DNA from: a virus
Length of the DNA stretch: 39,656 nt
Virus record (IMG/VR): IMGVR_UViG_3300008108_000630
Coordinates: 1 to 39,656 of that record
Reading direction: 5' to 3' (one strand)
A model generated the notes under the pieces. It searched no databases. It was not told the DNA's origin and saw nothing but the letters and a program-made list of their open reading frames with translations. Of this stretch, positions 5,899 to 39,656 are shown piece by piece. Numbering within the stretch: the first letter of the stretch is position 1; the number at the start of each line of letters is the position of its first letter. A program made the position numbers and the translations under genes.

Positions 5899-6287
5899 AA
5901 CAGTATCCCATCTTCTAACTTTAAGAACCCCACTAGTTTAGTACGACTAGTCTTGTTAGCAAACTCAGTAGTAATAGGTAGCCACTTATCAGCCCACTTA
6001 GGTTGAGGTATTGTGGATAAGTTAAAGCCCCATATACCAGCAGGTGTAGAGTTAATATACCAAGGTGTGAGTGATCTAATACCTGCTGCCATAATTAAAC
6101 CCTGATACTTACTCTCTTCAATAAGTAGATCAGGGTAGTGGGTCTTGCGGGATTTTAATTCTATAAACATCTTATGTTCTAGTGATATGCAATCCCAGTT
6201 GTCAAACTCTTCCGACTTCTCTAAGTCTGAGTAGTAAAACTCCTTGAGATAGTCTAAAAGTTCCGGTTCTTTTAACTCTATGCCCAA
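5895..6287 (-). CDS. Putative PD-(D/E)XK-type endonuclease, 130 aa
   Basis: Recognisable phage family. The segment DNWDCISLEHKMFIELKSRK carries an E-x-K motif in a strand, preceded by acidic residues, as in restriction-like nucleases. Then come HYPDLLIEESKY and the conserved INSTPAGIWGFNL and PITTEFANKTSRTKLVGFL. DNA substrate unknown. TTG start at 6287 overlaps the end of the sigma-like gene. A role in DNA processing or host DNA breakdown is inferred. Confidence 0.55.
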   Translation of the reverse strand: MGIELKEPELLDYLKEFYYSDLEKSEEFDNWDCISLEHKMFIELKSRKTHYPDLLIEESKYQGLIMAAGIRSLTPWYINSTPAGIWGFNLSTIPQPKWADKWLPITTEFANKTSRTKLVGFLKLEDGILF

Positions 6288-11045: not shown

Positions 11046-11215
11046 ATTGACATCCATCCTATATATCCTGCATCGGGATTATCCCGTAGCCACTGCTCTC
11101 TCATCTTGTTCTGTTCCTCCCAGTTAGTATTGGTATCTCTGCAAGCCTTGACGCCATCTTCATAACCCTTTTCATAGGCTTCTTGGATAGCAAACTTTCT
11201 AGTCTTTATGATCAT
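11042..11215 (-). CDS. Small hypothetical protein, 57 aa
   Basis: An ORF coupled by ATGA on both sides: to the proteasome-like gene before it and to the Cas4-like gene after it. The product is a charged helical protein (FAIQEAYEKGYEDGVKACRD) with WLRDNPDAGYIGW near the end. The helix-then-NPD pattern is seen in small phage proteins of unknown role. It fills an otherwise empty interval. Confidence 0.6.
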   Translation of the reverse strand: MIIKTRKFAIQEAYEKGYEDGVKACRDTNTNWEEQNKMREQWLRDNPDAGYIGWMSI

Positions 11216-11778
11216 TTACTTTTTCTTTTCTGCACCGCAATCTGAATAGGTGGACAGGTATTGATATCTAATATGCTGGCTATCTCTACTGCCTTCTGTG
11301 CTATCTCAACTGCTTTATCTTGAGTCATAACCTGATAGTCAAGTGAGAATAGATATCCAGTAGCAAATTGACCACCTGATCCAATACCATAAACCTTTAG
11401 TTCATTTTGTATAAATGACATATCACAGGCAATATGAAACAGATTAGAATCAAAGGCTATTAGATAATCAAAGCCACCATCTTTCTTATCAACATTAGCC
11501 CAGTCATAAGTGTTCTTATTGAAGGCATTGATAATAGATGGAATCATTTTCTTACCCATAAACTGGACAGGATCTTCACCTCTATACGTTGGTGGCTTCC
11601 AGTTATAAGTTAAGATATCACCAGCTCTAGTATCACCGGTAATTCCAATGGCAACATAACCAACTTGAACTATCTTGGGTGTGCCTAAACTAATTGTTCT
11701 TAGATTATCTTCAGTAATCTGTGAGTCAGCAGCAAGAACTACATAACCATTTCCTTGAATACCAACAACCGTAGTCAA
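11212..11778 (-). CDS. Proteasome beta / HslV-like Ntn-hydrolase, 188 aa
   Basis: After removal of the initiator the chain begins TTVVGIQGNGYVVLAADSQI, which aligns with the mature N-terminus of HslV and 20S beta subunits. The features are Thr1, Asp17 and Lys34 (in TPKIVQV), then GITGDTRAGD, the GIGSGGQFATG loop and ILDINT for the downstream Asp/Ser network. It has no propeptide. The TTG start would be read as Met and could be trimmed to expose Thr1. The ribosome-binding site AAGGAGGGG is excellent. First gene of the replication operon, behind an extended -10. No partner ATPase is visible, so host ARC/Mpa or autonomous action is possible. Confidence 0.8.
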   Translation of the reverse strand: MTTVVGIQGNGYVVLAADSQITEDNLRTISLGTPKIVQVGYVAIGITGDTRAGDILTYNWKPPTYRGEDPVQFMGKKMIPSIINAFNKNTYDWANVDKKDGGFDYLIAFDSNLFHIACDMSFIQNELKVYGIGSGGQFATGYLFSLDYQVMTQDKAVEIAQKAVEIASILDINTCPPIQIAVQKRKSK

Positions 11779-21659: not shown

Positions 21660-23355
<1,696 letters not shown>

Positions 23356-37401: not shown

Positions 37402-39264
37402 TTAGATGAATGTACGTTCCTTCTCAGCAAAGAGTTCGTCTAGGTTGACGACTGTTCTCTTGCTTTGTTCATACTTTGATAGGAATGGATTTTTAAGATG
37501 GTGTGTCTGGTACTTACCATAGTTGAGCATCTCTCTTGCTCTGATCTCACAGAACCAAAGAGCCATTACCATATCTGTCTTACCCTTAGTCGTAGGAGAC
37601 CAAGTAATTAACTGCTCTATTAGAGCCTTAATGTTTTCAGTTTGATCTGAAGGTAAATGTATTAGGTTATCCCTATGGTGCTTACCATCAAATTGCTTAG
37701 TACCAAATAAGGTAGCCATAGATGCAACACCGAAACCTGCATCCCATTTATTACTACCAGTATGGTGTTCTTTAAACTGTACACCTTTAGATGCTAAGTG
37801 CATCTTAATACCTTCATCTTGTGTTAAGAAAGATTGAAATGCGTTCTTCTCTACTATCCACTCACTAGGACCATACAAGGATGTCCAGTCAAATATTAAA
37901 TTTCTAATAGCAGCAGGGCTAGGCCTAGTAATCTTAATAGCATCTACGATATAGCGTTTGTTACTAGCTCTATCAATTGCATAACAGATAGCTGCTGTAT
38001 CTCCTACCATCGCAGGATCTAGTCCGCAGATAAAGGTAAAGCCATTTAAATCTCTTGGGTGTCCAGGATGACCTGCGGTTAATCTACCTGCCTTACGCAT
38101 ACCATCAATAGATCCACGAACACAGACTGGGTCAAAGGCCGCATCATCTGATATGTCTTGTTGCTGGTAAATCAAAGCCCAGGTGGAAGCATCCATAGAT
38201 TGGCGTTCGTTATATAGGTTACGCCCATTCCATCTTGGGTAAAGATTAGTTACTGGATCCTTCTCTTCTTCCTTCTGACCATCAAAGGGTTGATCTGATG
38301 CGGGCCATAAGGTTTCCCACTTATCGGGATCATCATCTACTGTAAGTAGAGCTGGCATTGCTAGGTAGGACCAAGGTACTAGGCCACCAGGATATCTATC
38401 GTTGTTGCGTAGTTCTTTATATAAATCAACTGAGGCAACACGGGTACCTATGATAATAAGTTTACCTGTGGGGTTAAGACGAGATCTAACATCTTGGGTT
38501 AACCACTTGATCTGTCGTTCAAAGTCATTAGCATTGGATAGAGTTACAGCATCATCTACTATAATCATATCTGCTCTTTTACCGTAGATCTGACCGCCAA
38601 TACCAACTGCTTCTATATTGGGATCCTTCTCACCAGATTCACGCAATTCATCACCGAAGGTAACGCGAGTTGCTTGCCAGGAGGCGCTCTTAGATTTAAA
38701 GCCAATACCGGCAGCGTAAGCTGACTGGAGGGCCTCATACTGTGGGTGGGTAAGTCTTTGCTTTATAGCGTATAAAAAGTCTGCGGCTAATCTTTGAGTC
38801 TGGGAAACTATTAAGACTCTAAAGTTTGGGTTCTTACAAACCTGCCAGGTGACGTAGTCAATTGTAATAGTCATTGACTTGGCGTGGTTGGGTGGAATGT
38901 TTAGAAGTATGCGGTTATTAGCTAATCCTTTTTCATACTTCATAGAGGGGTGCAACCAAGAGGGTTGCCCAACCTCAATCATATCTACTAAATTTTGTTG
39001 ATGGGGGAAGGTCTTATTATGTAAGAAGCGATCCCTGAACTGGGCGAAGGTAATCTCATTTACATCACCTAATGCGAAGTTCTTATCCCTTAGACCTAGG
39101 CGGGTTCTATCTACCTTGTCTGAGAATATCTTGTCTGTCCTGCGGTAGTACTCATAAGTCTTAATGGATTTACCGGCGGAGGCACAGGCTTGCTCTATTG
39201 TCATACCTTCTGCTACGGATGTAAGAATAATCCGCTTGCCGATATCTGCTGAGTTCTCAGCCAT
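37402..39264 (-). CDS. terL: Terminase large subunit, 620 aa
   Basis: The ATPase-nuclease motor that packages DNA into proheads. An N-terminal HTH-like segment GMTIEQACASAGKSIKTYEY (20-39) precedes the ATPase domain. Walker A-like NIPPNHAKSMT (122-132), Walker B ADMIIVDDAV (231-240) and motif III LIIIGTR (269-275) are visible. The nuclease half begins around FICGLDPAMVGDTAAICYA and contains further Asp/Glu residues. First gene of the late operon, with GGGGAG five bases before the ATG. No separate small subunit is seen; the HTH-containing N-terminus may replace it. Confidence 0.93.
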   Translation of the reverse strand: MAENSADIGKRIILTSVAEGMTIEQACASAGKSIKTYEYYRRTDKIFSDKVDRTRLGLRDKNFALGDVNEITFAQFRDRFLHNKTFPHQQNLVDMIEVGQPSWLHPSMKYEKGLANNRILLNIPPNHAKSMTITIDYVTWQVCKNPNFRVLIVSQTQRLAADFLYAIKQRLTHPQYEALQSAYAAGIGFKSKSASWQATRVTFGDELRESGEKDPNIEAVGIGGQIYGKRADMIIVDDAVTLSNANDFERQIKWLTQDVRSRLNPTGKLIIIGTRVASVDLYKELRNNDRYPGGLVPWSYLAMPALLTVDDDPDKWETLWPASDQPFDGQKEEEKDPVTNLYPRWNGRNLYNERQSMDASTWALIYQQQDISDDAAFDPVCVRGSIDGMRKAGRLTAGHPGHPRDLNGFTFICGLDPAMVGDTAAICYAIDRASNKRYIVDAIKITRPSPAAIRNLIFDWTSLYGPSEWIVEKNAFQSFLTQDEGIKMHLASKGVQFKEHHTGSNKWDAGFGVASMATLFGTKQFDGKHHRDNLIHLPSDQTENIKALIEQLITWSPTTKGKTDMVMALWFCEIRAREMLNYGKYQTHHLKNPFLSKYEQSKRTVVNLDELFAEKERTFI

Positions 39265-39274
39265 TTAACTCCCC

Positions 39275-39325
39275 TGTGGATAAACCTGTGGATAAGCGCC
39301 GAGAGTAAATTTTTTTAATTTTACT
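39275..39325 (-). other. Candidate replication origin: two DnaA boxes beside an AT-rich tract
   Basis: On the minus strand TTATCCACA occurs twice perfectly (plus-strand TGTGGATAA at 39275-39283 and 39287-39295), in the same orientation, 12 bases apart. Right next to them is an AT tract (39306-39323) with the inverted repeat AGTAAA/TTTACT. Perfect DnaA boxes plus an AT-rich unwinding tract are the standard ingredients of a bacterial origin. The phage has primase and helicase but no polymerase, so host DnaA initiation is plausible. The terminase ribosome-binding site begins beside the boxes. Confidence 0.55.
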
Positions 39326-39336
39326 AGGCCCAGAAT
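39298..39336 (-). promoter_or_regulatory. Composite regulatory element, copy B
   Basis: GCCG (39298-39301), 19 bases, then TTACTAGGCCCAGAAT (39321-39336). This matches copy A (11851-11889) in spacing and in 15 of 16 positions of the second box. Both copies lie upstream of the first gene of a minus-strand operon. A TATAAT (minus strand, 39337-39342) abuts this copy and could be the -10 of the late promoter, though no good -35 is seen. Confidence 0.55.
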
Positions 39337-39356
39337 ATTATACTGGAGATAATATT
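39334..39356. promoter_or_regulatory. Perfect 8+8 palindrome, possible operator
   Basis: AATATTAT, seven bases, ATAATATT. It sits between the composite element and the structured RNA region and contains a TATAAT on the minus strand and TATACT (39339-39344) on the plus strand. Symmetric AT-rich arms are typical of repressor operators; here it could control the two divergent transcripts. Confidence 0.45.
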
Positions 39357-39550
39357 ACACTACACCTGCCGCTTGCGTATGTTGTCTGGTAACTCCCGAA
39401 GGAGCTACAGCGACTGAGGGGTAAAACCTTCACTCGCCCTTAGGGGGCATCGCGAAGGTTTACCGAAGCGATGTGGTCGTAAAACTTAAAGCGGTTCGTT
39501 TTACTCCCCTACTATATATAAGGCGGGAAATTAACTCCATTTCCCGTTTT
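39345..39550 (+). ncRNA. Putative structured non-coding RNA ending in an intrinsic terminator
   Basis: No gene is seen, but the strand folds well. CTCC-CGAA-GGAG forms a hairpin around 39393-39404. GGTAAAACCTTC (39420-39431) pairs with GAAGGTTTACC (39454-39464), enclosing a GCCC/GGGC hairpin. GTAAAAC (39479-39485) pairs with GTTTTAC (39498-39504). The same GTTTTAC...CTCCCC strand could instead pair with GAGGGGTAAAAC (39416-39427), so two alternative folds are possible. The RNA would end at the terminator at 39524-39550. Either strand might be used; the terminator orientation points to plus. Confidence 0.45.
39524..39550 (+). terminator. Intrinsic terminator of the right-end transcript
   Basis: CGGGAAAT (39524-39531) pairs perfectly with ATTTCCCG (39539-39546), loop TAACTCC, followed by TTTT. 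Standard plus-strand rho-independent terminator, although the T-run is short. Its presence with no upstream gene implies a plus-strand non-coding transcript. Confidence 0.65.
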
Positions 39551-39656
39551 CTGGTAAAAAATCTTTATAAATGTGATACACCTCACTTACAAACTAGGGC
39601 AAAACGGACATATCGGGCTATATACAGCCAGCTTCACTTTAGCAAATATTTTTATT
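39551..39656. other. Right-end AT-rich non-coding stretch
   Basis: No gene, tRNA or obvious repeat of the left end is seen here. The sequence is AT-rich near its end. If the genome is circular it precedes the left-end promoter. I see no terminal direct repeat long enough to prove circularity. Confidence 0.5.

Follow-up and report, generated by a model that had tools for sequence, protein, structure and literature searches.

A new structured RNA between tandem DnaA boxes and a CRP/GlxR-type site beside the terminase gene of a freshwater actinophage

What does a phage keep in a stretch of DNA that contains no gene, next to the gene for its terminase? The window studied here, that is, the whole stretch of 39,656 bases that was analysed (virus record IMGVR_UViG_3300008108_000630, positions 1-39,656), ends in such a stretch, with no open reading frame of at least 60 amino acids across positions 39265-39656. 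A previous sequence-only reading had described it as gene-free and proposed that it combines a phage replication origin dependent on host DnaA with an adjacent regulatory RNA. The two perfect DnaA boxes 12 bases apart (start to start), the AT tract and the 8+8 palindrome on which the first half of this proposal was built are all present:

37402..39264, minus strand: terL, terminase large subunit, 620 aa (PHROG 38, E 9e-63)
39275..39283, minus strand: DnaA box 1, TTATCCACA, exact match, immediately before the ribosome-binding site of terL
39287..39295, minus strand: DnaA box 2, TTATCCACA, exact match
39304..39325, no strand: AT tract (91% A+T) with an imperfect inverted repeat (I8), AGTAAATTT...AATTTTACT
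39334..39356, no strand: palindrome AATATTAT-ACTGGAG-ATAATATT, read from the sequence, which contains the second direct repeat, TATACTGG

The window can be assigned to an actinophage, a member of a group very common in freshwater metagenomes, whose hosts are probably the dominant streamlined actinobacteria. Its TerL has more than 590 relatives in IMG/VR; it shares 46% identity with that of the cultivated Planktophila phages E7/F5, a distant relationship, and 42% with that of Streptomyces BI-type phages. Genes were found for homologues of a WhiB-like protein, a sigma-like factor, DnaB helicase, primase, RusA, and endonuclease VII. The supposed absence of a phage DNA polymerase holds in that none was identified in a partial annotation, but for several large genes no function could be assigned; this annotation identified neither a phage RNA polymerase gene nor a Rep/initiator gene, and the window has no tRNA or tmRNA genes. 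The phage also encodes a proteasome/HslV-like protein (11212-11778) and a collagen-repeat protein (21660-23018, E 1e-34). A related contig, L002, joins the right and left ends of the window through 169 extra bases, being 100% identical over the common upstream stretches. The DnaA/RNA region is therefore intergenic, located between leftward late genes and the rightward genes at the opposite end. The part of L002 missing between the window ends (L002:130-298) carries TGTCCG repeats at a spacing of ~10 bases, and the matching stretch is hypervariable in relatives, with DnaA pairs, TTAGACA hairpins, and GCGGTCTAG repeats (L125, L145, L170).

Beyond the palindrome, the region is dominated by folded elements:

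39395..39420, plus strand: RNA hairpin P2, CCC, tandem G.A, AG/CU, tandem G.A, GC-UACA-GC, from covariation
39416..39424, plus strand: near-invariant GAGGGGUAA, which closes P2, from conservation
39424..39461, plus strand: RNA hairpin P3, AAACCUUC/GAAGGUUU around GCCC/GGGC, with compensated stems
39449..39472, plus strand: helix P4, AUCGC (39449-39453) with GCGAU (39468-39472), with compensated variants
39479..39504, plus strand: RNA hairpin P5, GUAAAAC/GUUUUAC, with compensated variants
39506..39523, plus strand: motif B, CCCCTACTATATATAAGG, near-invariant, with pattern matches in at least 120 stretches of IMG/VR
39524..39550, plus strand: hairpin CGGGAAAT/ATTTCCCG followed by TTTT, a possible weak terminator of ambiguous strand, read from the sequence

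Comparative analysis identifies the segment 39395-39504 as a new structured RNA of about 130 to 170 nt, and we hold it as nearly certain that this RNA is real and lies on the plus strand, pointing away from terL. The nested hairpins announced by the sequence-only reading are supported by a folding energy that beats all 200 shuffles (z -3.9 on the plus and -4.0 on the minus strand). TerL relatives yielded 80 loci, and in 78 of these part of the region could be aligned. Covariance analysis of relatives revealed compensatory changes, with seven switches in P2 and variants in P3, P4, and P5. A covariance model, R1, matched 92 of 92 diverse loci (E 1e-16 to 7e-45); these loci had been picked by two of the RNA's own motifs, so that the result demonstrates coherence rather than frequency. 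The combination of GAGGGGTA and motif B occurs in 179 loci, and the ~20 loci without it are mostly truncated or have a diverged motif. Several relatives (L054:477-550, L111:9168-9241, L151:6847-6920, L090, L175) carry a tRNA-Arg gene (anticodon acg) between terL and the RNA.

Of the elements of the RNA, P2 has the strongest proof as judged from the alignments. Among 90 sequences, the pair 39400-39415 is A-U in 60, G.U in 19, and G-C in 10 (one of the three in 89/90), and the pair 39401-39414, always a standard pair of one of four types, is G-C in 61, C-G in 27, U.G in one, and U-A in one. Seven independent switches between G-C and C-G map to the TerL tree, both sides changing together in 7/7 cases (p 0.016). 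Two tandem G.A steps, largely conserved, flank these covarying pairs. P2 also informs about the strand. Since folding is equal on both strands, energy alone cannot tell them apart, and RNAalifold, applied to a plain MAFFT alignment, scored the two almost equally and missed the P2 G.A pairs; the strand was settled instead by the asymmetry of the wobbles. Read on the plus strand, the P2 wobbles comprise 20 G.U/U.G cells and no A.C, which makes the plus strand the RNA.

A rival reading is that the late terL mRNA has its 5' leader here and that the functional RNA is the minus strand. The P2 wobbles and the tandem G.A steps, which would become mismatches on that strand, make it very unlikely. The equal folding energy agrees with it. 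The hairpin at 39524-39546 agrees with it too, as it pairs better on the minus strand: its second stem pair is A.C on the plus strand in 79/108 distinct relatives and becomes G.U on the minus. The same hairpin qualifies the terminator of the sequence-only reading: on the plus strand it is indeed followed by TTTT, but a terminator scan flags the minus strand only. The U-run is present in most relatives, and the A.C pair weakly suggests that the plus-strand terminator would be a poor one in most of them. A scan for sigma-70 promoters found none. TASTATAWAWA, considered as a shared late-promoter motif, was discarded too, since its 16 occurrences in the window amount to no enrichment over the 14.9 expected.

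The remaining helices vary with compensation as well. P3 occurs in relatives as AAGCCUC/GAGGCUU, AAACUCG/CGAGUUU, GAACCUU/AAGGUUC, and GUUGGUAC/GUGCCAAC, and in several other clades its outer stem is weak or missing; P4 takes the forms ACUCGC/GCGAGU and CUACGC/GCGUAG; and P5 is replaced by GCAAAGC/GCUUUGC, GCAAAUC/GAUUUGC, and others, its pair 39480-39503 being U-A in 25 sequences and C-G in 10 through a single event on the tree. Because P4 crosses the outer P3 stem, the two form either a pseudoknot or alternative folds. The minimum-energy fold uses P4 and a G-tract/C-tract pairing in place of P3, so that competing states are physically plausible. The sequence-only reading had derived two exclusive folds from a GTAAAAC segment occurring three times. 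There are in fact only two exact copies (39421-39427 and 39479-39485), with GGTAAAA at 39553 and the complement GTTTTAC at 39498-39504. The local GTAAAAC/GTTTTAC hairpin varies with compensation, but the long-range arm of the proposed switch has no covariation support: its GGGGUAAAAC partner shows invariant G/C pairs only, whereas the crossing P3/P4 helices vary with compensation.

This RNA is previously undescribed and unannotated, and is conserved within this common freshwater group. A known RNA family was ruled out, as Rfam 15 gave no match above the gathering threshold in the window or in nine relatives, and only chance-level ones below it. BLASTN of the region and of the consensus RNA against INPHARED gave no match, motif B was absent from GTDB genomes, and a search of the open-access literature found no description of such a phage RNA. 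Likewise, no member of the RNA-bearing group was present among the named phage records searched, the cultivated relatives being E7/F5 on Planktophila. The second half of the earlier proposal is thus upheld for a covarying plus-strand RNA new to Rfam, but its regulatory nature is a best guess, namely that the RNA would work as a regulatory leader. Another role, as a small antisense regulator of terL translation, was suggested by its ACUCCCC segment, complementary to the terL ribosome-binding site, and by the corresponding window repeat TTTAACTCCCCT/TTTTACTCCCCT (92%). Across 40 loci, however, the RNA pairs with its own terL start no better than with those of others (mean rank 0.50), and we disfavour antisense control as extremely unlikely.

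Between the RNA and the end of the window lie two further conserved elements that, together with the neighbouring genome end, had escaped the sequence-only reading:

39572..39586, no strand: CRP/GlxR-type palindrome TGTGA-N6-TCAC, the sole full match in the window
39636..39653, plus strand: motif D, ACTTTAGCAAATATTTTT, near-invariant, the sole exact match in the window and aligned in relatives

All 136 distinct relatives possess the CRP/GlxR-type site, 91 of them in exact form and 45 with a single mismatch, and it lies either 33/34 or 48/49 bases from motif B, two spacings that differ by ~15 bases. Its N6 varies freely, with 29 different versions among the 91 exact sites; both this and the fixed position fit a putative CRP/GlxR operator. 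Motif D follows the pattern ACTTTAG-N-AAATAT-N-TTT, continued in relatives by GGG(GA)GTATATAC, and may serve the phage sigma factor as a promoter or belong to the edge of a terminal repeat. The window ends three bases past it, as would be expected at the inner edge of a repeat of this kind. In relatives, the ends of contigs are clustered 132-159 bases past motif D, in several cases at a conserved GGGC(T/G)NNC, and the Streptomyces phage Percastrophe has a 264-bp terminal repeat with its edge at the place homologous to the motif D region. We infer that the region is the terL-proximal end of the genome and that a direct terminal repeat lies here.

Does the region also contain an origin? Ten bases separate the first DnaA box from the terL start codon. 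Besides the pair, the window has a single perfect box, at 6012, and boxes with at most one mismatch are at chance level across it (13 seen against 11.5 expected). As single boxes occur at chance frequency, the tandem pair is the special part. It was found in 42 of 129 distinct regions, in one orientation throughout, against 1 in 25,800 mononucleotide-shuffled regions. It occupies one of two places, beside terL (20/129) or beyond the RNA/CRP module, ~200 bases past motif B (22/129), and never both; the p value of this mutual exclusion, 0.024, ignores kinship, so that it is supportive only. The TerL tree places the pair beside terL in the window's own clade, with losses, and requires several changes for the far position. 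Other relatives carry different repeats at the far place, such as TTAGACA...TGTCTA in 17 regions, and the DnaA pair looks like a swappable module. Conservation of the boxes is accordingly partial: they keep a fixed geometry in the regions that have them but lie outside the conserved core, and about two thirds of the relatives lack the pair in this region, so that it cannot be the sole replication start of the group. Nor do RNA and boxes form one unit, since the RNA is present in all relatives and the terL-side boxes mainly in the window's clade.

With a frequency far above chance, fixed positions and a fixed orientation, the DnaA half of the earlier proposal is nevertheless upheld as a functional module, and we consider the pair very probably functional. 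That it is a replication origin is plausible, although we would stop somewhat short of calling it probable. The same 21-bp arrangement exists in many bacterial genomes, where at least 23 of 117 sampled loci bear the DnaA or L34 signatures of oriC, and isolated tandem pairs with identical spacing also occur away from oriC in bacterial chromosomes; the arrangement alone is therefore no proof of an origin. GC skew, which had been proposed as a check, tracks gene direction only, with no extra origin signal, and is confounded by that direction as an origin test. A published DnaA-trio pattern, with three NAN triplets in a stretch of 16 bases, was considered too unspecific to inform. AT-rich DNA adjoins the boxes in the window, and relatives with the pair at the far place have other flanks. 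Alternatively, host DnaA might open no origin and instead, by covering the DNA just ahead of the terL ribosome-binding site, block or time transcription of terL, in the late operon. The position of the pair, ending 10 bases before the terL start codon as a trait of the window's clade, and the isolated chromosomal pairs speak for this rather unlikely role; it accounts poorly for the 22 regions in which hundreds of bases, including the RNA/CRP module, separate the pair from terL, and for the many relatives that have none.

The DNA between the boxes and the RNA is rich in repeats. Of two direct repeats of the TACTRG type (39318-39345, TACTAGG/TACTGG, ~19-22 bases apart), the first is formed by TTTTACTAGG, the 3' part of the AT tract. 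Direct repeats matching in at least 8 of 9 bases precede the RNA in 50 of 92 relatives, against ~11 expected, and 21 of 63 relatives have a palindrome with arms of at least six bases here, against 5.8 expected, the letters of the arms varying with the pairing kept. The direct repeat differs between clades and matches within each genome (TACCGG, ATACC, TTAGCTG, TAGTGG), as if it co-evolved with a DNA-binding protein.

Taken together, the explanation that we prefer, with confidence evenly divided between its being right and wrong, is that of a control region extending from terL to the genome end, with a DnaA platform and an RNA leader. The DnaA pair would be the binding platform of an initiation or control module dependent on host DnaA, with AT-rich DNA alongside in the window's clade, at which DnaA would either open an origin or control terL. 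CRP/GlxR would act on transcription out of the region. Less certainly, the RNA would be the leader of a rightward transcript starting near the TATACT repeats, acting in cis as an attenuator or antiterminator, for which we see a modest chance. If the ends are joined, this transcript would cross the terminal repeat toward the plus-strand genes at the left of the window. On a linear molecule, however, these genes lie beyond the genome end from the RNA, which counts against the leader.

The proximity of the genome end also raises the possibility of a role in packaging. In T7, pausing of the RNA polymerase marks the concatemer junction for the terminase. Here, the folded RNA, or transcription toward the terminal repeat, might similarly mark the junction, and RNA, motif D, and terL are indeed kept together in relatives, ~100 bases from the putative edge of the repeat. 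We regard this as unlikely, though, as the E7/F5 clade has no clear homologue of the RNA, the annotation revealed no phage RNA polymerase gene, and the terminal repeat of this phage is itself inferred. Quite improbable is the idea of a new class of phage RNAs acting in cis at a genome end, with the growth state of the host timing a packaging switch. If true, host DnaA and CRP/GlxR would set the transcription of the RNA toward the terminal repeat, and this transcription would decide between replication or early transcription and recruitment of the terminase. A conserved RNA beside sites for host DnaA and CRP/GlxR suggests a lytic phage that senses the replication and metabolic state of its host, and the movable DnaA pair offers a natural experiment to distinguish origin from switch.

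How does this region compare with known systems? Plasmid and phage origins with DnaA boxes and iterons, such as P1 oriR, resemble it in that a DnaA pair can stand on one or the other side of the core and short repeats lie nearby (TGTCCG in L002); they differ in that no Rep/initiator gene was identified here and that the core is a structured RNA with a CRP-type site. The basal unwinding system of bacterial oriC consists of tandem DnaA boxes, a spacer, and DnaA-trios (PMC8287927). Like it, the phage carries TTATCCACA twice in tandem at a distance of 12 bases, with a GC-rich GCGCC and an AT-rich stretch behind the boxes, but its pair sits between terL and the genome end and is absent in most relatives. 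The Planktophila phages E7/F5 (PMC10202952; OX376640, OX376641) share genome size, WhiB and sigma genes, elements ahead of terL that resemble motif D, GGGTGAGTATATATAC, and TTAAACAACCC, and intergenic CRP-type sites. Their clade has no clear R1 match (best E 0.023) and different hairpins instead; upstream of terL, its members (L217, L229, L224, L252) possess their own conserved hairpins and GGGGGCTAATATATATAA-type motifs without clear similarity to the RNA. Percastrophe (Streptomyces BI-type, MG663583) likewise has a noncoding pre-terL region and a CRP-type site at the edge of its terminal repeat, but neither a P2 nor a motif B signature, and its terminator-like hairpins are of another kind. 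HK022 putRNA (PMC9378689) and other RNA antiterminators are likened to the RNA by proposed role alone, as folded phage RNAs acting in cis on their own transcript. By analogy, putRNA, the DnaA-box origins, and the T7 concatemer junction appear to be the nearest functional counterparts of this region.
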